DNA of 40,312 nt from Pseudomonadota bacterium. Its GTDB lineage: Bacteria; Pseudomonadota; Gammaproteobacteria; Steroidobacterales; Steroidobacteraceae. The stretch lies in contig JAJZDX010000038.1 in NCBI GenBank assembly GCA_021805865.1, positions 1-40,312 on the forward strand. Reading direction: 5' to 3'. The notes under the pieces were generated by a model. That model was given only the letters and a program-made list of their open reading frames with translations, was not told the DNA's origin and did not search any database. The position numbers were made by a program, and so were the translations under genes. Shown piece after piece: positions 27,498 through 38,291 of this stretch. The first letter of the stretch is position 1; each line of letters opens with the position of its first letter.

Positions 27498-27516
27498 TGG
27501 TAGCGAGGGCGGGATT
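27498..27516. repeat. degenerate copy of the tRNA-fMet 3' end (att remnant)
   Basis: TGGTAGCGAGGGCGGGATT matches the minus-strand end of the tRNA (38215-38233) at 17 of 19 positions and the copy at 29864 equally well. Weak similarity to the 29864 copy continues to the right (AGGTGG and GACGGGT-like blocks up to about 27,580). It lies in a 291-bp gap (27386-27676) without a gene. Confidence 0.6.
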
Positions 27517-29863: not shown

Positions 29864-29882
29864 TGGTAGCGGGGGCAGGATT
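29864..29882. repeat. copy of the tRNA-fMet 3' end (att site)
   Basis: TGGTAGCGGGGGCAGGATT is identical over 19 bp to 38215-38233, the 3' end of the tRNA seen on the plus strand. It is the left border of the Fic segment and the right border of the DUF6036/YdeI segment. Confidence 0.82.
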
Positions 29883-30071: not shown

Positions 30072-30137
30072 GGGTGTAATCGGGCGTCAGAATAGGCTTG
30101 GATAAATGGGCGTAAATGGGTGTATATTTAGGTGTGA
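30072..30137 (+). repeat. five short GGGYGT repeats in front of fic
   Basis: GGGTGTAA (30072), GGGCGTCA (30082), GGGCGTAA (30108), GGGTGTAT (30118) and AGGTGTGA (30130) recur with spacings of 10, 26, 10 and 12 bp, mostly near one helical turn. They overlap the start of the Fic gene and could be binding sites for its C-terminal helix-turn-helix. Confidence 0.35.
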
Positions 30138-31195
30138 GCCAGAGCCACCTCAATACGGACGCGTTAACGATCACCCCGGAAATCCTCGCCCTCATCGCCG
30201 CGATTGACGAGTTCAAGGGGGCTTGGCGGGCGCTCGGGGCGATCGCGCCGGAACGGCTCCAAGCCCTGCGCAAGGTGGCCACGATCGAGAGCATCGGGTC
30301 CTCGACCCGCATCGAGGGCGCAAAGCTCTCCGACCGTGAAGTCGAGCGCCTGCTGTCCAAGCTGGAGATCAAGTCCTTCGCGACACGCGACGAGCAGGAG
30401 GTCGCGGGCTATGCCGAAGTCATGGACCTCGTGTTCCAGTCCCATCCCGAGATCGCGATCACCGAGAACCATATCCGGCAACTGCACCGCGATCTCTTGT
30501 GCTACAGCACGAAAGACGATCGGCATCGCGGCAGCTACAAGACCGCGCCCAACCATGTCGCTGCGTTCGACGAGCAGGGCAATCAAATCGGCGTGGTGTT
30601 CGAGACAGAAAGCCCGTTCGAGACGCCGGGTCGGATGGCTGAACTCATCGCCTGGGTTCAGGGGGCTCAAGCCGAAAGGCGGCTGCATCCGATTCTGATC
30701 GTCGCGATCTTCATCGTAGTCTTTCTTGAAATCCATCCCTTCCAGGATGGCAACGGACGGCTCTCACGAATTCTAACCACTCTAATGTTGCTTCGGGCGG
30801 GCTATGTCTACATGCCATACGCCTCGCTCGAAAGCGTGATCGAGCAGAGCAAGGAAAGCTATTACCTCGCGCTGCGCCGAACCCAGGCGACGATCCACAG
30901 CAAGCGACCTGATTGGCAGCCCTGGATCCTGTTCTTCCTGCAGGCGCTCGAGCGGCAGAAGAACCATCTCGCCGCCAAGATCGAGCGCGAGAAGATCGTC
31001 GTCGCGCAACTGCCGGAGTTGTCGGTGCGCATTCTCGATTTCGCGCGCGAGCACGGCCGGGTGAGCGCCGGCGACATGGTGCGGCTAGCTGGCGCCAGTC
31101 GCAATACGCTGAAGCAACAATTCCGTCACCTCGTAGAGCGCGGCTATCTTACCCGCCACGGCGGCGGTCGCACGACCTGGTACACCTTGCGGTAG
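30116..31195 (+). CDS. Fic-family AMP-transferase with C-terminal helix-turn-helix
   Basis: A 359-residue class II Fic protein. The inhibitory helix S63-x3-E67-G68 (SSTRIEG) lies N-terminal to the core, the beta-hairpin flap region precedes it, and the active site is H207-P-F-Q-D-G-N-G-R-L-S-R. All residues for AMP transfer from ATP to a Ser, Thr or Tyr are intact. The last about 60 residues form a winged helix (ILDFAREHGRVSAGDMVRLA, then RNTLKQQFRHLVERGYL) that probably binds DNA. Such proteins are often island cargo and may act as toxins or self-regulated modifiers. ATG 30116 is plausible but has no ribosome site. The gene is alone between two copies of the tRNA 3' end. Beyond it, 31196-31426 shows no gene. 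Confidence 0.9.
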   Translation: MGVYLGVSQSHLNTDALTITPEILALIAAIDEFKGAWRALGAIAPERLQALRKVATIESIGSSTRIEGAKLSDREVERLLSKLEIKSFATRDEQEVAGYAEVMDLVFQSHPEIAITENHIRQLHRDLLCYSTKDDRHRGSYKTAPNHVAAFDEQGNQIGVVFETESPFETPGRMAELIAWVQGAQAERRLHPILIVAIFIVVFLEIHPFQDGNGRLSRILTTLMLLRAGYVYMPYASLESVIEQSKESYYLALRRTQATIHSKRPDWQPWILFFLQALERQKNHLAAKIEREKIVVAQLPELSVRILDFAREHGRVSAGDMVRLAGASRNTLKQQFRHLVERGYLTRHGGGRTTWYTLR

Positions 31196-31426
31196 AGAGA
31201 GGGAACGGGCCAGCGACGGGTCCGCGCGGATCAGGCAGCCGTGTCGCTGATCGGATCGAGGAGGCGTTCGAGACCGGTGACGTGATCCGCGCGAGGAAAT
31301 ACCTCACGGCGCAGATAGGACCGATGAGGGTCGATGGAACGGGAACGCGATCCGACGCTACAGCGAGCAGATGGCATTATCTGCGTCCTTGCTGAGGACG
31401 GTTGGCATCGCCCATGCAAGTAAGGT

Positions 31427-31441
31427 TGGTAGCGGGGGCAG
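31427..31441. repeat. att copy at the left end of the integrative element
   Basis: TGGTAGCGGGGGCAG equals the first 15 bases of the tRNA-end site at 38215; with the preceding T the match is 16 bp. The following bases (ATACC) differ from the tRNA (GATTT). Confidence 0.75.
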
Positions 31442-31489: not shown

Positions 31490-31543
31490 TGTGACCATGC
31501 GATTTGCGACCGGATTTTGTGACCATTTCGGGGTCGGTGCCTA
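31490..31543. repeat. left arm-type repeat block of the integrative element
   Basis: The block has TGTGACCA at 31490-31497 and 31518-31525, with TTGCGACCGGATTTTGTG (31504-31521) between and across them, and ends GGTGCCTA. The same order occurs at 38039-38095. These are probably integrase or excisionase binding sites. The rest of 31442-31689 shows no gene. Confidence 0.6.
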
Positions 31544-31689: not shown

Positions 31690-31917
31690 TCAGCGGTCAA
31701 GCGTGCCCGCGCGGTACTCGGCCAGCTCTTGCCGCTGTGCCCGGAGTTCCCGCGCCAGCTCGCGCAGCTCGGCCCGTGTACCTCCGCGCCACGCATTGCG
31801 AGCGCAGATAGCTTTACCGGCTCCCGTCCTTGGTCCCGTCGACCGCTCCCAGGGTCGCCATTGCCGGATCAGCTCCGCTTGCCGTGCTCGGCGTGAGGGT
31901 GTCCAGGCGGTCGTCAT
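31690..31917 (-). CDS. small conserved island protein
   Basis: A 75-residue basic protein, MTTAWTPSRRARQAELIRQW followed by RPWERSTGPRTGAGKAICAR and a helical Arg/Leu-rich tail. I recognise this as a small protein found in phages and islands next to similar primase modules, without known function. A good ribosome site (GGAGG, 9 bases before the ATG) supports it although it overlaps the end of the upstream gene by 104 bp in another frame. Last gene of the leftward operon. Confidence 0.65.
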   Translation of the reverse strand: MTTAWTPSRRARQAELIRQWRPWERSTGPRTGAGKAICARNAWRGGTRAELRELARELRAQRQELAEYRAGTLDR

Positions 31918-32494
31918 GGCCTTGCGCCTCCAATAGTCTGTTCTGCGGGTTTTCGGTTTCTAGCGCGCGCGCGGGTACGGTCGGCGCGGGTGTGCCGTTG
32001 TTCACTTGCTGCGGGCCGTGCGCAACGTTCGCCTGCCGGATGAACGTCGGATTCGGCGGGTTCTTCAGCAGCGCCAAGGTTTCGAGGGTCGAGCGGCATT
32101 GATTCTGCGCCCGCAGCGCCAAGCGCATGTACCGGTCCGCCGCATCCAGGTACTCGCCCATGTTCAGGCCCGCTCTGCGTGCGAGCTCATGGAACAGCGC
32201 TTGCAATGTATGCGCTTGTGCGAAAAGCATTTCCTCGGCCCCCCGCATATCGCCACGTACAACGGCTTTGCTCTGTGACGCAAGTTCCTCCGCGAGAGCG
32301 GTAAAGTCCAAGTCCCCGAGCTGCGGCTTGGCATAACTGGCCGTCGTGACCGCTGCCCGCACATTGGCGCGCAAAGCAACCCGTGCGAGCATAGTGGCGC
32401 GGTCCGCGCCGGGTGATTTTTGGACACTGAGCGTATTGTTCGGCGGGGTCGTGGGTTTGGGCGGTGCCTTCGCTGGCGGTTTCTTGCGGCTCAT
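31814..32494 (-). CDS. conserved island/phage protein of unknown function
   Basis: A 226-residue protein. A Pro/Lys-rich N-terminal tail (1-25) leads to a mostly helical core (about 30-145) with MLFAQAHTLQALFHELARRA and ADRYMRLALRAQNQCRSTLE, then NPTFIRQANVAHGPQQVNN, a motif that recurs in phage and island proteins, and a disordered C-terminus. No enzymatic motif is visible. GAGGGG lies 8 bases before the ATG, which overlaps the stop of the previous gene (ATGA, 32491-32494), so translation is coupled. It may assist replication or DNA handling with the primase; that is inference. Confidence 0.75.
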   Translation of the reverse strand: MSRKKPPAKAPPKPTTPPNNTLSVQKSPGADRATMLARVALRANVRAAVTTASYAKPQLGDLDFTALAEELASQSKAVVRGDMRGAEEMLFAQAHTLQALFHELARRAGLNMGEYLDAADRYMRLALRAQNQCRSTLETLALLKNPPNPTFIRQANVAHGPQQVNNGTPAPTVPARALETENPQNRLLEAQGHDDRLDTLTPSTASGADPAMATLGAVDGTKDGSR

Positions 32495-32997
32495 GACGGC
32501 AGCCCCTCGGCGGACTGGCGCAGCCGCTCATTGAACATCGCCACTCCGGGCCACAATGCCGCCGGGATGTGCGCCTCGCCGGTGACGATGCCCCCGGTAG
32601 CGGTGCGCAGGCCCAGCAGGACCGACACGGGCCCGCTCGCCGGGGCGGTGAGCGATGCGTTCGCCACGTCGAAGCTATACCGCAGCGCCGGGTCCGCTTG
32701 CAGGCGCGCTATGACGCGCTGGCGGCGGCGTTCCAGTTCGCGGGCAGCAGGTGCCGCCGGTTGCCAATCAGCGGCGCAGCCGTCCGCATACGCGCCCCAG
32801 GTCTCGGTACGGTGTTTGACGCACCAGCCGTCCGGGGTCTGCCCGGGTTTCGCCCGGAAGTGCAGGCACGTGGCACACGCGCCGGTCGGGGTGGTGACGG
32901 TCGCCGGGGTGATCGGTCTCTCAGGCGGTGCGGCCTCGGCTTTCGTGGAGGATTGCCGCCCAGCAGCGGCCCTTGCGAGTCTCATCAGTTCAGACAT
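32491..32997 (-). CDS. Cys-cluster (zinc-ribbon-like) island protein
   Basis: A 168-residue protein. The centre holds C-A-T-C, then GWCVKHRTETWGAYADGC, a four-Cys arrangement that probably binds zinc, as in small phage-borne finger proteins. The C-terminal half has no recognised motif. The start at 32997 has GGAGG about 5 bases upstream; an ATG 15 bases earlier lacks a site. It lies 66 bp after the primase gene and overlaps the next gene by ATGA, in the replication operon of the element. Confidence 0.75.
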   Translation of the reverse strand: MSELMRLARAAAGRQSSTKAEAAPPERPITPATVTTPTGACATCLHFRAKPGQTPDGWCVKHRTETWGAYADGCAADWQPAAPAARELERRRQRVIARLQADPALRYSFDVANASLTAPASGPVSVLLGLRTATGGIVTGEAHIPAALWPGVAMFNERLRQSAEGLPS

Positions 32998-33063
32998 AGC
33001 CCCTCCGTTCAATCATGCGACGTGCGACCAAAGCGATATAAGCGACCAAAGTCCGGGGCTTGC

Positions 33064-35319
33064 TCATTCCGCACCCCCTTTTATCGCTTTCGTCGCTTTT
33101 GTCGCAGCTCGCCATACCTCGGAAGGTCGCCCGCCGGTCTGTTCCTCAGCCTTGCGCGCGAGTCCGCGCGATACCAGCAGGTCGAGTGCAGCGGTGACGC
33201 GCTCCGCCCTCTGATGTCGTTTGAACAGGTCGCGTATCGCTGTGCGCGTCAGTCCCTCATCGCCGGCCCGGCGCAATGCCGCCAGCAGGTCATCGGCCAC
33301 CGGATCGCCAAGGGAGTCTCCGAAGATGTACGCGGCGGATGCTTGGACGTACTCGATAACCGCTAGTGCTGCCAGCAGGTGCGGTGCGTCGATCACGGCG
33401 GAACAGTCGCCCAGGGCGTAGATCAGCGCCAGCCGCAATGTCTGCGCCTCCGAGCGGGCCGTGACAGCGCCCAGCAATCCGGGGCGCGGTTGCGACAGCT
33501 CGGCGTATAACCCCGCCCAGATCGTTCTCGCGGCCTCCGTCATGCGAACCCATTGCAGCGTGCGGGCGTGCTCTATCGCCCGGTTGAGTCTCAATGTCAC
33601 GTCCACCAGGGCATCGGGGTCTATCAGATCGCCGCCAAAGGGCAGCAGCTTCGACCGTCTCGCCAGTCCGAACAGAAACCGATTCGCAAAGCCGTTCGCT
33701 GTGTCGGTTGCGGTCAGCTCGGCGCGCAGCTCGGGAATGGTGATGTGCCCGATGATGCAGATGTGCGCGCCCGTCGCCACTACGGGATCGTTTTTCGTCA
33801 AGGTCATCATGCAGCCGGTATCCCATGCGCTGCGCACAGTAGGAGAGAGGGTGTTGCCGCTGCGCGCCGTCTGCCGTAGGGCTTGCGCAAATTCCGATTC
33901 CACGACCAGCAGCCGCTTATCGGTCACGCCAGGATCGGCCAGCACGGTCTCGGTGCGCTGGGCTTTCTTGTCGTACTGTTCTTCCTCTCGCGCGTCTCGG
34001 ACGTGGTACTTGAGCCCTTCGCCGCTCGATAGCCCCTCCACAGCGCGGGGCCAATCGTTCGTACCGCTCAAAATCTGCCGCACGCGCCCCCAGGACGTGC
34101 CCTTACGCGCCTTCGATGACTCCCCGACGATGACCGCATACAGCGCGCCGTGGTGCTCATCGCCTTCCACCTTGACGTGCGGGCCACGTCCTACGGTTGC
34201 GCCGAACGCGACCAGGGTTTGCAGCAGAATCGCCGCCGGGTCCGCTTCGGTCTGCGGCTCGATCAGGTCCACGATCTCCCCGATGATGCCGTGGTATGCC
34301 TCCTTGGCGAGCGAGTCAGGCCACGGTGCGGGGTCTGTAGGATTGGCCTCTGCGTTCGCTTGAACAGAGTCCGCCTCGGGACCAGGCTCGCGCGCCGCCT
34401 CGATACCGGCCCGCACAGCGTCCAGCCCCTCGGCCCGGTGAACGTCGTTCCAATCAGTGCCATCCTTGGGCGGAATCGCCACCAGTCCCCCAACCGCACG
34501 CGCCGATTCCATCGCCGCACGTTGGCCGGTGACGCTCGCGTCATTGTCGCCGCACAGGACGATGCGAGCCTCGGGAAACTTCGCTCTCAGCGCCTCGGCA
34601 ACGGCGCGCAGATTCCCGGCACTGAACGCAACCGCAACAGCGTGCCCGGTAGCCTCATGCACGCTCGCGCCGGTCGCGTATCCCTCGCAGATGCACAGCA
34701 GGCCGTCCGGCTTTCCGATAGCGAAATAACAGCCCTTCACGCGCCCGCCGGGGAGGAATTTCTTTTCGCCGTCCGGGGTGATGCGCTGAAGGTTTACGAT
34801 CTCGCCGCCGCTCGCCATCGGCACCAGCAGCTCATCGCCGCTCGCGCGCAGGCCGTAGGACTTCACACCTTTGCGTAACCGATAGGGGTGATTGTCCGGT
34901 GTCGGTGTCGAGTCGTGCCAGATCCGTTGCGCCCAGTCCGCCGTGCTGCGCTGGCGCTCGGCCTCATCCGCTTGGCGCTGCCGGCGCATTGCTTCCATGC
35001 GGCCCCTGTGCGCGCGGAATTCCTCCGTGGTGAACTTGCGGTCCGTTCTAGCGTGCCAGGTCTGTTTAACCCCGGAGCGCCAGCAGCCGAACATCCCCGC
35101 CGGCACGCCATCTAGGTGCAATCGGTAGTAACCAGCATCATCACCACGGTGGCCATCGGATGCGAAACGGTGCAGCGTGCCGTCCGCCTCGATTGCTTCC
35201 GGTGGTGTCAGTCCAGCCGCTGCAATCGCTGCACGGAATCGGTCGATCACGTCGTGCTCGGCGGTCGGGAGTGGTCGGCCATTCACCGGGCCGGTGCAGG
35301 TTTCCATGCCCGTGCTCAT
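33064..35319 (-). CDS. Toprim-domain primase/helicase of the integrative element
   Basis: A 751-residue replication protein. The N-terminal part (about 20-150) reads like a P4-type primase region (MFGCWRSGVKQTWHAR). A Toprim domain follows at about 200-300, with LLCICEGYATGASVHEATG and IVLCGDND as its acidic motifs. The C-terminal half is of the DUF3987/helicase type, with a P-loop-like segment VGESSKARKGTS and LLVVESEFAQAL. It would prime and perhaps unwind DNA at the element's own origin after excision. The ATG at 35319 overlaps the stop of the AlpA-like gene (ATGA), so the two are translated together. The final 70 residues look like a winged helix (EGLTRTAIRDLFKRHQRAER). Confidence 0.87.
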   Translation of the reverse strand: MSTGMETCTGPVNGRPLPTAEHDVIDRFRAAIAAAGLTPPEAIEADGTLHRFASDGHRGDDAGYYRLHLDGVPAGMFGCWRSGVKQTWHARTDRKFTTEEFRAHRGRMEAMRRQRQADEAERQRSTADWAQRIWHDSTPTPDNHPYRLRKGVKSYGLRASGDELLVPMASGGEIVNLQRITPDGEKKFLPGGRVKGCYFAIGKPDGLLCICEGYATGASVHEATGHAVAVAFSAGNLRAVAEALRAKFPEARIVLCGDNDASVTGQRAAMESARAVGGLVAIPPKDGTDWNDVHRAEGLDAVRAGIEAAREPGPEADSVQANAEANPTDPAPWPDSLAKEAYHGIIGEIVDLIEPQTEADPAAILLQTLVAFGATVGRGPHVKVEGDEHHGALYAVIVGESSKARKGTSWGRVRQILSGTNDWPRAVEGLSSGEGLKYHVRDAREEEQYDKKAQRTETVLADPGVTDKRLLVVESEFAQALRQTARSGNTLSPTVRSAWDTGCMMTLTKNDPVVATGAHICIIGHITIPELRAELTATDTANGFANRFLFGLARRSKLLPFGGDLIDPDALVDVTLRLNRAIEHARTLQWVRMTEAARTIWAGLYAELSQPRPGLLGAVTARSEAQTLRLALIYALGDCSAVIDAPHLLAALAVIEYVQASAAYIFGDSLGDPVADDLLAALRRAGDEGLTRTAIRDLFKRHQRAERVTAALDLLVSRGLARKAEEQTGGRPSEVWRAATKATKAIKGGAE

Positions 35320-35555
35320 GCCGCATCCCCGGTGGTGTCATGGGCCGGCTGGGTCCATTCCTCGCCGCGAGCGCGGGCAGCTAGATAGTCGGACAGCTCG
35401 GCGGTCAGGACTCCGCTCGCGCGCCCGCCGGGGGTGAATTTGATGATTCGGGGGAACTGTCGGCGCCGCTCAAGCCGATAGATGCTCGGCAGGCTCATGC
35501 CCGTCAGGTCGGGCAGGCGGTGCGTCCGGGTAAAGCCTTGGGGTCTCGAAAGCAT
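35316..35555 (-). CDS. AlpA-like helix-turn-helix regulator
   Basis: A 79-residue protein of the AlpA/excisionase-like winged-helix type: RLPDLTGMSLPSIYRLERRR, then FPRIIKFTPGGRASGVL. AlpA proteins bind DNA near integrase and replication genes of P4-like elements and activate excision or the operon. The start at 35555 is chosen because GGAGA lies about 7 bases upstream; an ATG 12 bases earlier lacks it. First gene of the leftward operon, ahead of the primase. A strong promoter (35586-35613) and three phased palindromes (35617-35675) lie just upstream. Confidence 0.85.
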   Translation of the reverse strand: MLSRPQGFTRTHRLPDLTGMSLPSIYRLERRRQFPRIIKFTPGGRASGVLTAELSDYLAARARGEEWTQPAHDTTGDAA

Positions 35556-35585
35556 GACGGTCTCCAAAAGGATGTGCCGTCAGGA

Positions 35586-35613
35586 ATCATAGGGACACGT
35601 CGCCCCGTGTAAA
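35586..35613 (-). promoter_or_regulatory. sigma-70 promoter of the AlpA-primase operon
   Basis: TTTACA (35613-35608) and TATGAT (35591-35586) are each 5/6 matches, with a 16-bp spacer. The start of transcription would be near 35,579, leaving a leader of about 24 bases. The nearest of the three palindromes ends three bases from the -35 box. Confidence 0.7.
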
Positions 35614-35616
35614 TCA

Positions 35617-35675
35617 AGTCTCCCTAGGAGACTGCCCAGTCTCCGCAGGAGACTCCCCAGTCTCCCCGGGAGACT
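35617..35675. repeat. three 17-bp palindromes with an exact 21-bp period
   Basis: AGTCTCC and GGAGACT flank three central bases (CTA, GCA, CCG) in three units at 35617-35633, 35638-35654 and 35659-35675. The arms are identical in all three; only the centres and the 4-base gaps (GCCC, CCCC) differ. A 21-bp period is two turns of the helix, so bound proteins would sit on one face. The array lies between the promoter of the AlpA-like gene and the stop codon of the next gene. It may be an operator or the iterons of the element's replication origin. Confidence 0.92.
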
Positions 35676-35678
35676 GGG

Positions 35679-36638
35679 TTATGCTTCGGCCTTTCCTTCG
35701 GCGTCGCGCCCCTCGGCAAGCCACGTTGCCACGGTCGACGGCTTGAACGGTCGACTGCCATTCGACAGTTTTATAGACTCAAGTGAGTCCGCGTACTTCT
35801 GATAGACAACGGACTTGGTGCGGTATTTCGCGTAGTCGCCTTCCTCATTCCACCATTTCAGCACCTGCGCCTTCGCCTTCCGGAATTCCTTGTACTTTGC
35901 TCCGTTCGCGTTTTGCGACTTGAGCTTGCGTTCAGCTCTCTGCGCTTCCTCGGATGCGCTTTGGCTGTCCTTCGTGGCCTTGGCGTGCTCGGCGCGCAAT
36001 TCGGCCATAGCGCGCCGGTTCTTTGCCTCGCTCGCCGCATAGCAGGCGGTACCGATAATGTCAGGATAATTGGGCGGACGTTGCGGCGGCATTTCGAGAG
36101 TTTCGAGAAAATTCGTTTGTGCTGCCTGCACAAACAGAGACACCGCCAAAATCGCGTAGAGCATCGCATCATCTGCATCTGGGCCAAGTTCTTCGTCTAC
36201 GACGTCAGAAACAGGCAGCTCACTCGCGCAGTAGTCCATGTACTGCAATGCACCGTTCAATACGAAGCGAGCAAGTACGTATTCCGGTCCGTTCGGTCCC
36301 TGGATAATCAGCTCATCAACGTTACCAATCCAATCGAACGTCTGTTCTATCTGGAAAGCCGCCTTGCGGATCATGTCATCGTTGAGTCCATTTAGGATGT
36401 CCAGAGCATCCCTACAAGCGTATGACGCTGAATCGTCGCTTAGGTGACGGGGTATTTCGGCAATGGATTTGGGCCAATTCGTTGGGCAAATTGTGGGAAT
36501 CGGGGCAGATGATCCGAATACTTCGTTTGCAATCTGATTAGAGTCTCCGACCTCATGCACACCATCCAATCTTGGGTCATCACATAGGCGCGCGTACTCT
36601 CGCCGCGCGGCCTCCCATTCGTTGTGATCGGTGCCCAT
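35679..36638 (-). CDS. protein of unknown function (319 aa), possible island cargo
   Basis: A 319-residue protein with no family that I recognise. The N-terminal two thirds are acidic and mixed helical (DDMIRKAAFQIEQTFDWIGN; DDAMLYAILAVSLFVQAAQ), with no membrane segment long enough to be sure. A charged coiled coil spans about 205-260 (AKNRRAMAELRAEHAKATKD onward), and the end (SRPFKPSTVATWLAEGRDAE) may be a small DNA-binding helix. AGGAGG 4 bases before the ATG fixes the start. GC content is lower than in the neighbouring genes. It lies between integrase and replication operon, a place where such elements often hold cargo. Enzyme motifs are absent. Confidence 0.75.
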   Translation of the reverse strand: MGTDHNEWEAARREYARLCDDPRLDGVHEVGDSNQIANEVFGSSAPIPTICPTNWPKSIAEIPRHLSDDSASYACRDALDILNGLNDDMIRKAAFQIEQTFDWIGNVDELIIQGPNGPEYVLARFVLNGALQYMDYCASELPVSDVVDEELGPDADDAMLYAILAVSLFVQAAQTNFLETLEMPPQRPPNYPDIIGTACYAASEAKNRRAMAELRAEHAKATKDSQSASEEAQRAERKLKSQNANGAKYKEFRKAKAQVLKWWNEEGDYAKYRTKSVVYQKYADSLESIKLSNGSRPFKPSTVATWLAEGRDAEGKAEA

Positions 36639-36754: not shown

Positions 36755-38008
36755 CTATGCGGGCGTCCTGAACGGTATGACGTTGGTTTTCGGCTCGGCC
36801 TCGCGCAGCTCCGTCAGCCAGTGCGCCCATCGCTGCATCATGGCGCGGCGTTGCGGCTCGAAGGTCGCGCGGTCATAGGCTTCGCCGTACTTGTCAGCGG
36901 TCAGATGCGATAGCTGATACTCGATCAGCTCATCGGCAAACCCCAAGGTTTGCTTCAGATTCGTCTTGGCGGTCGCGCGGAAACCGTGCCCGCTCATGAC
37001 TTCCTTCGGGATACCGAGCGCGCGCAGTGCGCTCAAGATCGCGTTATCGGACATAGGGCGGTCTCTGCCGCGCGCCGATGGGAACAGGTACTCGCCGTTG
37101 CCGGTGTGCGCTTGCAGCTCGCGCAGTACCTCGATTGATTGTGATGCGAGGGGAACATGGGCCATGCGGACGCGGCCCGCCTCGATGTGTTTGCGCCGTT
37201 GCTTCGATACCGGGTACACCCATTCGGCCCGCTCGAAGTCCACTTGCGACCATTTGGCGTGACGCAGCTCGCCGGGGCGCACAAACAGCAGTGGTGCGAG
37301 TTTCAATGCGGCGCGCACGGCGGGCGTTCCCTGATATGCCCAGATGCCGCGCAGCAGGTCCGCAAGTTTCGCCGGTTCGGTGATCGCCGCGCGGTGGCGG
37401 GTGACATGCTCGGGCATCAGTTCGCGCAGCAGCACCAATGCGGCATCGGCGGCGTCATAGTGAATGTCGAGCAGTGCCCGACCATAGCGGACAACGGCAC
37501 GGATCAGCCGGAACATGCGCCATGCGGTCTCAATCGAGCCTTTCTCGGCGCAGGGCAGTACGGCGGTGACGATCTCGCGGGCGGTCAGGTCGGCCAGCGG
37601 TCGCGCGCCGATCGCACGGTTTGCCTTGCCGATCAGCCGTTCATTGCGCGTGCGGTTGCCCTCGGCCCATACCTGCCGCGCCATCCACCGCTGTGCAACA
37701 TCCTCGAAGGTGCCCGATGTGATCTCGCGGCGGCGCAGGGCGTCCAGCCGGCGGTCGGTGATGGGGTCAGATGGGGCAGGGCTGGCGAGTTTCGCGCGCT
37801 CCTTGCCGGCCAGATCGCGCGCAGCAGCAAGCCCTACGGCGGGGTACTTCCCTAGGCTCATCCTGCGGGTCTTACCGTCGAGCGTGTAGCGCAGCAGCCA
37901 GTACTTGCGGCCCCAGGGTTCGACCGCCAGGAACAGCCCCTCGGCGTCGTGGAGCGTGTATCGCTTCGCCTTGGACTTGGCAGCCCTGATTTTGGCGTCG
38001 TTCAGCAT
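36755..38008 (-). CDS. P4-type tyrosine recombinase (integrase)
   Basis: A 417-residue integrase. The N-terminal arm-binding domain (DUF4102-like) reads LNDAKIRAAKSKAKRYTLHD and YPAVGLAAARDLAG. The catalytic domain has R244 (VRPGELR), H341-x2-R344 (GHGFRAT), H368 (LSHL) and nucleophile Y378 (EAYDR), followed by RRAMMQRWAHWL. All catalytic residues are present. AGGAGA lies 8 bases before the ATG. It is 206 bp from the 3' end of the initiator tRNA, with arm-type repeats between, so the tRNA end is its attachment site. Transcription runs away from the tRNA into the element. Confidence 0.95.
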   Translation of the reverse strand: MLNDAKIRAAKSKAKRYTLHDAEGLFLAVEPWGRKYWLLRYTLDGKTRRMSLGKYPAVGLAAARDLAGKERAKLASPAPSDPITDRRLDALRRREITSGTFEDVAQRWMARQVWAEGNRTRNERLIGKANRAIGARPLADLTAREIVTAVLPCAEKGSIETAWRMFRLIRAVVRYGRALLDIHYDAADAALVLLRELMPEHVTRHRAAITEPAKLADLLRGIWAYQGTPAVRAALKLAPLLFVRPGELRHAKWSQVDFERAEWVYPVSKQRRKHIEAGRVRMAHVPLASQSIEVLRELQAHTGNGEYLFPSARGRDRPMSDNAILSALRALGIPKEVMSGHGFRATAKTNLKQTLGFADELIEYQLSHLTADKYGEAYDRATFEPQRRAMMQRWAHWLTELREAEPKTNVIPFRTPA

Positions 38009-38038: not shown

Positions 38039-38095
38039 TGTGACCAGTGCCCGGCTTGCGACCGGATTTTGTGTCCACTCTCGGGCGGGTGCCTA
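38039..38095. repeat. right arm-type repeat block of the integrative element
   Basis: TGTGACCA (38039-38046), TTGCGACCGGATTTTGTG (38056-38073) and TGTGTCCA (38070-38077), ending GGTGCCTA, mirror the block at 31490-31543 in the same orientation; the 18-base core is identical. They lie between the integrase start and the tRNA. Confidence 0.6.
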
Positions 38096-38214: not shown

Positions 38215-38233
38215 TGGTAGCGGGGGCAGGATT
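38215..38233. repeat. att core inside the tRNA-fMet 3' end
   Basis: TGGTAGCGGGGGCAGGATT, 19 bp, is repeated exactly at 29864-29882, over 15 bp at 31427-31441, and with two mismatches at 27498-27516. Confidence 0.85.
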
Positions 38234-38291
38234 TGAACCTGCGACCTTCGGGTTATGAGCCCGACGAGCTGCCAGACTGCTCCACCCCGCA
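38215..38291 (-). tRNA. initiator tRNA-Met (CAT anticodon)
   Basis: A 77-base gene including encoded CCA. Acceptor arms TGCGGGG and CCCCGCT leave positions 1 and 72 unpaired (U-U), and the anticodon stem TCGGG/CCCGA around CTCATAA has the three G-C pairs typical of initiators. The T arm is GCAGG-TTCAAAT-CCTGC. Together this marks tRNA-fMet rather than an elongator. The last 19 bases are the att core of the integrative element, so integration keeps the gene whole. Confidence 0.95.

Follow-up and report, generated by a model that had tools for sequence, protein, structure and literature searches.

The element and its insertion site

The analysed stretch of DNA, called here the window, is 40,312 nucleotides long and carries a small integrated element adjoining a tRNA-Met gene. 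Read along the minus strand, the element consists of a tyrosine integrase gene (int), a gene between int and alpA for which we use the working name mid, an array of palindromes, a promoter-like site, an AlpA-like gene (alpA), a Toprim primase gene and two smaller open reading frames (ORFs). The features are, from the tRNA end:

38215-38291, minus strand: tRNA-Met gene adjoining the element
38215-38233, plus strand: attachment-like repeat TGGTAGCGGGGGCAGGATT at the tRNA-Met end
36755-38008, minus strand: tyrosine integrase gene (PF13356, PF22022, PF00589)
35679-36638, minus strand: mid, 319 aa, candidate binder of the array
35659-35675: palindrome unit nearest the mid stop codon, AGTCTCC-CCG-GGAGACT
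35638-35654: middle palindrome unit, AGTCTCC-GCA-GGAGACT
35617-35633: palindrome unit nearest the alpA promoter, AGTCTCC-CTA-GGAGACT
35586-35613, minus strand: predicted promoter-like site of alpA-primase, TTTACA-N16-TATGAT, 10 of 12 consensus bases
35316-35567, minus strand: AlpA-like gene, ATG probably at 35555 (PF05930, 22.1 bits with a cut-off of 21)
33064-35319, minus strand: Toprim primase gene, 751 aa (Toprim_3, E=2.8e-18; PHROG DNA primase, E=1.1e-76)
32491-33012, minus strand: 173-aa ORF of the element, no Pfam or PHROG match
31814-32494, minus strand: 226-aa ORF of the element, no Pfam match
31504-31543, plus strand: 40-nt repeat immediately within the left end, with a counterpart of 83% identity at 38056-38095 within the right end
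31426-31441, plus strand: 16-bp copy of the attachment-like repeat, likely the other element end
29864-29882: 19-bp copy of the attachment-like repeat

The matches of the AlpA-like protein to PHROG excisionases and regulators were weak, and the primase had no Pfam match to DUF3987 or DUF5906 at E<=0.001. Measured between the repeats at 31426 and 38233 the element spans about 6.8 kb; it would be 8.4 kb if the 19-bp copy at 29864 were the end. The shorter length is probably correct, since an attachment repeat lies at 31426 and the 40-nt repeat, possibly an integrase arm site, is found inside both presumed ends. Partial copies of the tRNA-Met end repeat occur at 27498, 28784, 29864, 31426 and 38215 and are probably the traces of successive integrations into a single site; two of these copies enclose a Fic-domain gene (30116-31195). 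A search of plasmid DNA returned 461 records, and among the matches listed (20 of 461) only the tRNA end was matched.

The palindrome array and the alpA promoter region

The initial annotation had reported three 17-bp palindromes at 35617, 35638 and 35659 with a period of 21 bp, and both coordinates and period are right. The six arms are identical, the units are spaced by 21 and 21 bp, the gaps between them read GCCC and CCCC, and the array lies directly 3' of mid, its first unit beginning 3 bp past the mid stop codon. It was also correctly noted that the array adjoins the -35 box of the AlpA-primase operon: the predicted promoter is 3 bp from the array, and shuffled sequences contained a mean of 0.4 promoter-like sites of equal quality.

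The exact unit is rare. Beyond the three copies of the array it does not occur in the 4.68 Mb of the window's own genome, and among 200 genomes of the family it was found in two, the window's own and one other, whose single unit sits within an open coding frame and was taken as a chance match. Two tandem units with a 4-base gap were found in 0 stretches of the genome-contig and viral-contig collections, which possibly did not include the window's own genome. The direct-repeat score and the inverted-repeat score of the array were each reached by 0 of 400 dinucleotide shuffles; these shuffles and the rarity of the exact unit in the genome rule out a chance origin. The identity of the arms, which had been read as a sign of selection, was borne out as an observation, but the arms of one element alone are no proof of selection.

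Less complete versions of the pattern are more widespread. Left arms alone at 21-bp spacing were present in 3 of 58 genomes of the genus (the window's own, G571, which carries the related element L007, and G054 at locus L068), and the reversed control pattern matched three other genomes of the genus, so the left-arm pair alone is near background. In viral contigs, 10 stretches had three AGTCTCC motifs at 21-bp spacing, several of them being runs of short repeats, and the exact full unit was found at none of these 10 loci.

The half-site-like motif GGAGACC does occur at the ribosome sites at 35559 and 38014 and also in L007, as had been proposed, but not above background: because the 40-kb window contains it 8 times, counting both strands, these sites carry little weight as extra half-sites. 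The alpA ribosome site lies inside an inverted repeat in the window (35553-35590, arms GACGG/CCGTC) and in L007 (8183-8210, arms GACGGTC/GAGACCGTC), and translational control is a possible role of this structure.

Related elements

A related element lies at L007, on a contig for which the record gives a coverage of 1.65; its integrase, mid, AlpA and primase are 94%, 54%, 89% and 80% identical to those of the window, and it adjoins a gene similar to the neighbour of the window's element. This gene presumably encodes a HIT-type protein in both cases. L007 has an array in the same place, with 21-bp spacing and two units, of which the first matches window 35659-35675 and the second 35638-35654. 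In both units the left arms are exact and the right arms changed; the third unit is gone, and unrelated DNA (41% identical) holds the place of window unit 35617-35633. A TATACA-N16-TATGAT site is found at the place of the window's promoter-like site. The unit centres are 76, 55 and 34 bp away from the -10 hexamer in the window; in L007 the distances are 86 and 65 bp, a shift of 10 bp or about one helical turn, which as a single instance is a weak observation.

A search for the primase in 217 genomes of the family matched nine genomes, including the window's own with three loci. These three loci, on contigs C65 (the window), C47 and C77, encode related primases, the latter two 86% and about 60% identical to the window's, and the mid gene is different in each, as expected for heteroimmune or compatible elements. 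At L025, the co-resident locus with the 86% identical primase, mid is unrelated to the window's mid and so is the array, which consists of TCTGTCAGAGATGCCGG and TCTGGCAGAGATTCCGG at 21-bp spacing and starts 5 bp past the mid stop codon. This type of array was present in 2 of 58 genus genomes (its own and G102), with no match for the control pattern, and in 0 stretches of viral contigs. Outside these genomes, a comparison of the window primase with plasmids and phages gave no record with 80% coverage and only identities below 60%. The primase itself was not found in viral contigs; a scan of these contigs with the primase alignment gave two distant loci, one of them L066.

Another mid family is represented by L057; a search with its mid found 6 genomes among the 58 of the genus, counting that of the query. 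Four further loci (L096, L097, L098 and L099) have an L057-related site at the mid stop codon together with another AlpA subfamily, and no relatives of the window primase were detected in the 7.3 to 13 kb stretches available for them. At L099 (G181 contig 15) the L057-family mid is split into two frames and the post-mid site is kept. L035 and L037, with yet another mid family, have a mid-alpA gap of 293 bp with several AACCTATCCACCCC-like direct repeats. A near-perfect 29-bp palindrome, GCGACATCGTAACGCCGTTACGCTGTCGC, lies between mid and alpA at L062 (2001-2029), and its score was reached by 0 of 400 shuffles.

Covariation of the array with mid

A comparison of 10 elements gave 45 pairs; the 80-bp stretches following mid resembled each other in just two, window/L007 (z=20.7) and L025/L053 (z=39.8), and in both of these the mid proteins are related. 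With 14 elements (91 pairs), post-mid DNA was similar in 6 of 13 related-mid pairs and in 0 of the 78 others, and in 2 of 5 pairs sharing mid only compared with 0 of 6 sharing AlpA only, where the thresholds (z>=4, mid score >=70, AlpA score >=150) were of our choosing and the pairs are not independent. Not included in this table were L092 (mid match ends early), L090 (in-frame stop) and L091 (marginal match); L026 and the class-level loci, which have unrelated sites, were used in the gap-repeat scan described below only.

The pairs sharing AlpA only were L053/L057, L025/L057, L025/L050, L057/L050, L053/L050 and L054/L062. In the first three of these the 60 bp before alpA were similar, and in L053/L057 the AlpA proteins are 92% identical while the post-mid DNA has no similarity. 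Conversely, the post-mid site of L057 is common to L088 and L093, where AlpA belongs to another subfamily. On these comparisons the array appears to vary with mid, not with AlpA or the primase. The remaining 7 of the 13 related-mid pairs had no significant post-mid similarity. Six of them lie within the L057 family, where {L057, L088, L093} differ from {L087, L089} in a way that C-terminal identity alone fails to sort. Because the array abuts mid, linkage explains part of the covariation.

A second palindrome is found shortly before alpA in L025 (2465-2639) and L053 (4433-4606), with the sequence GACTCC-N2-GGAGTC, and a corresponding one, GACTC-AAAA-GAGTC, in L057 (4118-4258). It follows AlpA rather than mid and is a candidate AlpA site.

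These results bear on the binders named in the initial annotation, which were AlpA and the primase; mid was not among its candidates. Two altered units were found beside such genes in L007, and window-type palindromes were absent from L025, L050, L052 and L053, although their primases are 86%, 83%, 79% and 78% identical to the window's. As the arrays differ between elements with a well-conserved primase, the primase is probably not the reader of the array. AlpA is poorly supported as binder by the L053/L057 comparison; as the only close relative of the window's own AlpA subfamily is that of L007, which carries the array, AlpA could still be the binder within this subfamily.

Domain exchange and conservation

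The mid proteins of L025 and L053, which share the same array, have the last 75 residues in common (43/70) and little of the rest (37/135). In L053 and L062 the body is partly common (23/43) and the C-terminus is not (12/40), and here the post-mid DNA is different. Protein P0014 is chimaeric as well: its body resembles that of L053 and its end that of L062. This natural reciprocal swap points to the C-terminus of mid as the putative recognising part.

Between the window and L007 the two mid-proximal units are 87% identical, compared with 59-67% for the coding DNA of mid and 65% in the remainder of the gap; int (93%) and AlpA (89%) both exceed the array. In L025/L053 the array reaches 90% identity, more than any other stretch compared, and mid 48-64%. 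Judged by these values, hitchhiking alone would not leave the array more conserved than mid.

A repeat scan covered the first 110 bp of 22 mid-alpA gaps with 400 shuffles each. Direct repeats beyond all 400 shuffles were present in 4 of the 22 (window, L007, L025 and L053), all with a period of 21 and belonging to two families, and inverted repeats reached by at most 2% of the shuffles were likewise present in four (window, L053, L062 and L033). Being seen in 4 of 22 gaps only, the 21-bp array is one solution among several. No homology was detected between the two mid families that have such arrays (window/L007 and L025/L053), and in both the array of 21-bp period lies 3-5 bp past the mid stop codon; this period and placement may have arisen twice.

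The mid protein

The window's mid gave no match in Pfam (E<=0.001) or PHROG (E<=0.1), and no recognised DNA-binding domain was found in it in Pfam, PHROG and domain searches. Its structure model has a helix at 191-265 followed by two short helices, with pLDDT values of about 71-85 in this part and low overall, and Foldseek searches with low-confidence structure models gave no match at E<=0.001 for either model. The mid of L026 has a C-terminal homeodomain-like match below threshold (E=1.4e-6). The modelled helices and this match are a thin indication that the C-terminus of mid may be DNA-binding. A protein search with mid gave 9 proteins at E<=0.001, one being a start variant listed for the window only, and the mid families were not found in viral contigs.

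Proposed mechanism and alternative explanations

On balance we favour, with modest confidence, the interpretation that the array is a cooperative operator bound at the alpA-primase promoter by mid, a modular regulator, and that gene and array are exchanged as a cassette. The anatomy, position and conservation of the array and its covariation with mid can be read directly from the DNA. From these we infer binding, dimerisation, promoter function, the direction of control and an immunity-like consequence, as follows. The mid protein would have a helical body that probably dimerises, followed by a short DNA-binding unit at the C-terminus. Its dimers would bind on one face of the DNA behind the -35 region, each at one of the three palindromes and two helical turns from the next, and the array-bound protein would control the alpA-primase operon, which is expected to start excision and replication. 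Activation is more likely than repression, as the sites lie behind the -35 box, not over the promoter, and as an analogous gene in PICMI115, iolg, located between int and alpA, is needed for excision (PMC10803314). The mid gene and the array would travel between elements as one cassette, so that co-resident elements can carry different specificities.

Several other explanations were weighed against the operator interpretation. The hairpins in the int-mid transcript might act as a terminator, an attenuator or an RNA-based immunity signal, and the immunity of phage P4 is indeed RNA-based. The window (z -5.4) and L025 (z -4.7) fold better than nearly all shuffles, but the values for L007 (z -2.2) and L053 (z -2.0) are equalled by 4/200 and 10/200 shuffles, and in L007 the arm pairs are broken in both units without compensation. 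Moreover, the array hairpins on the operon strand have no T run, the one terminator-like match being on the opposite strand, and what the two families have in common is a direct period of 21 bp rather than pairing; we regard an RNA element as quite unlikely. An AlpA operator at the array, through which AlpA would control its own promoter, agrees with the self-activation of AlpA in Gram-negative PICIs (PMC6092414) and with the joint occurrence of the 89% identical AlpA proteins and the array in the window and L007. It fits poorly with another subfamily, where pairs of AlpA proteins 69-92% identical do not have post-mid DNA in common, or with the L057 post-mid site, which is retained beside AlpA of the other subfamily, and appears very unlikely to us.

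The array had initially been viewed as either a cooperative operator or the element's origin; the operator half of this proposal is now the better supported and the origin half is weakened. An iteron-type origin, with mid as replication initiator, the array as iterons at which the primase acts, and exchange reflecting incompatibility, would account for repeats at even intervals next to a protein gene subject to rapid exchange, for the three primase-related loci with different mid genes in one genome, which fit an incompatibility system, and for the several AACCTATCCACCCC-like copies in the L035 and L037 gap. Against it, L057-type sites occur in L096, L097 and L098, where no relative of the window primase was detected, and the origin of Gram-negative PICIs is placed immediately 3' of the replication gene and has an AT-rich region with an iteron set on either side (PMC6092414). 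The window array is GC-rich, has three units and is situated at a promoter-like site upstream of alpA. A scan 3' of the window primase (9-mers occurring three times within 500 bp), which would miss degenerate iterons, gave no clear set. We consider an iteron origin unlikely. Finally, mid could be a cofactor of an integrase-AlpA complex with the array as one binding site, in line with the iolg requirement and with the joint complex with AlpA and integrase suggested for it (PMC10803314). As the array and the tRNA attachment repeat are about 2.5 kb apart and the element is flanked at both ends by a different repeat of 40 nt, a role as excision accessory site strikes us as the most improbable explanation.

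Returning to the operator interpretation, a broader and tentative form of it, possible but doubtful in our judgement, is that AlpA-type satellites generally have their missing master regulator in the gene located between int and alpA. This DNA-binding protein would evolve fast, swap domains and act through a cognate array at the alpA promoter, the pair setting the immunity group and perhaps choosing the phage signal that wakes the element. If this were true, immunity groups would let several related elements coexist in one genome. If mid and array do form a pair, many unannotated int-alpA genes would gain a predicted function, and the binding site would be predictable, being readable just past the gene's own stop codon.

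Comparison with known systems

By their sequences, mid and the array may work like a specificity cassette of regulator and operator, with linkage possibly contributing in part. In lambdoid immunity regions the regulator and its cognate operators are exchanged together, which results in heteroimmunity; the likeness to mid and its array lies in the joint exchange, and the protein families and the site layout differ. Satellite phage P4 likewise encodes an integrase, a primase protein and Vis, which is AlpA-like; alpha binds the repeats at the P4 origin. Neither these alpha-bound repeats nor the RNA-based immunity of P4 fit the window array on present evidence. The available portions of PMC10803314, PMC10111431, PMC11773190, PMC12595487 and PMC6092414 describe no such array or regulator-array cassette.

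The master repressor Stl/Rpr of SaPIs is similar in being element-specific and in gating excision and replication genes, as proposed for mid; Stl, however, represses, has divergently arranged genes and is relieved by a protein of a phage (PMC6092414), whereas mid is read in the same direction as its putative target. The closest parallel in gene order is found in the PICMIs, satellites of Vibrionaceae, of which PICMI115 is 6,110 bp: these too are small elements with int, a gene beside int, alpA and prim in the same order (PMC10803314). In the window element the colocalised genes are represented by PF00589, PF05930 and the Toprim primase. There are also differences. PICMIs integrate downstream of fis, the window element at tRNA-Met; their primase is of the DUF3987 or DUF5906 type, that of the window Toprim_3; and unlike in PICMIs, mid does not overlap int but is separated from it by 116 bp (PMC10803314). 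PICMIs are induced and packaged by a helper phage (PMC10803314); the window element resembles them in gene layout. As neither the fis site nor a DUF3987 or DUF5906 primase is present, we do not file the window element as a PICMI. Gram-negative PICIs such as EcCICFT073 have unidirectional int, alpA and primase genes, an arrangement also seen here, but they are typically 10-20 kb with the origin 3' of pri, compared with probably about 6.8 kb for the window element (PMC6092414, PMC10111431, PMC11773190).

The gene beside int in PICMIs falls into 13 families, all reported as of unknown function (PMC10803314), and the operator interpretation makes the role of this int-alpA gene and the early switching-on of alpA-prim directly testable. 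In Gram-negative PICIs induction requires AlpA, which also activates its own promoter, and the existence of a global regulator besides AlpA has been called unclear (PMC6092414); this question, too, becomes directly testable with mid and its array.
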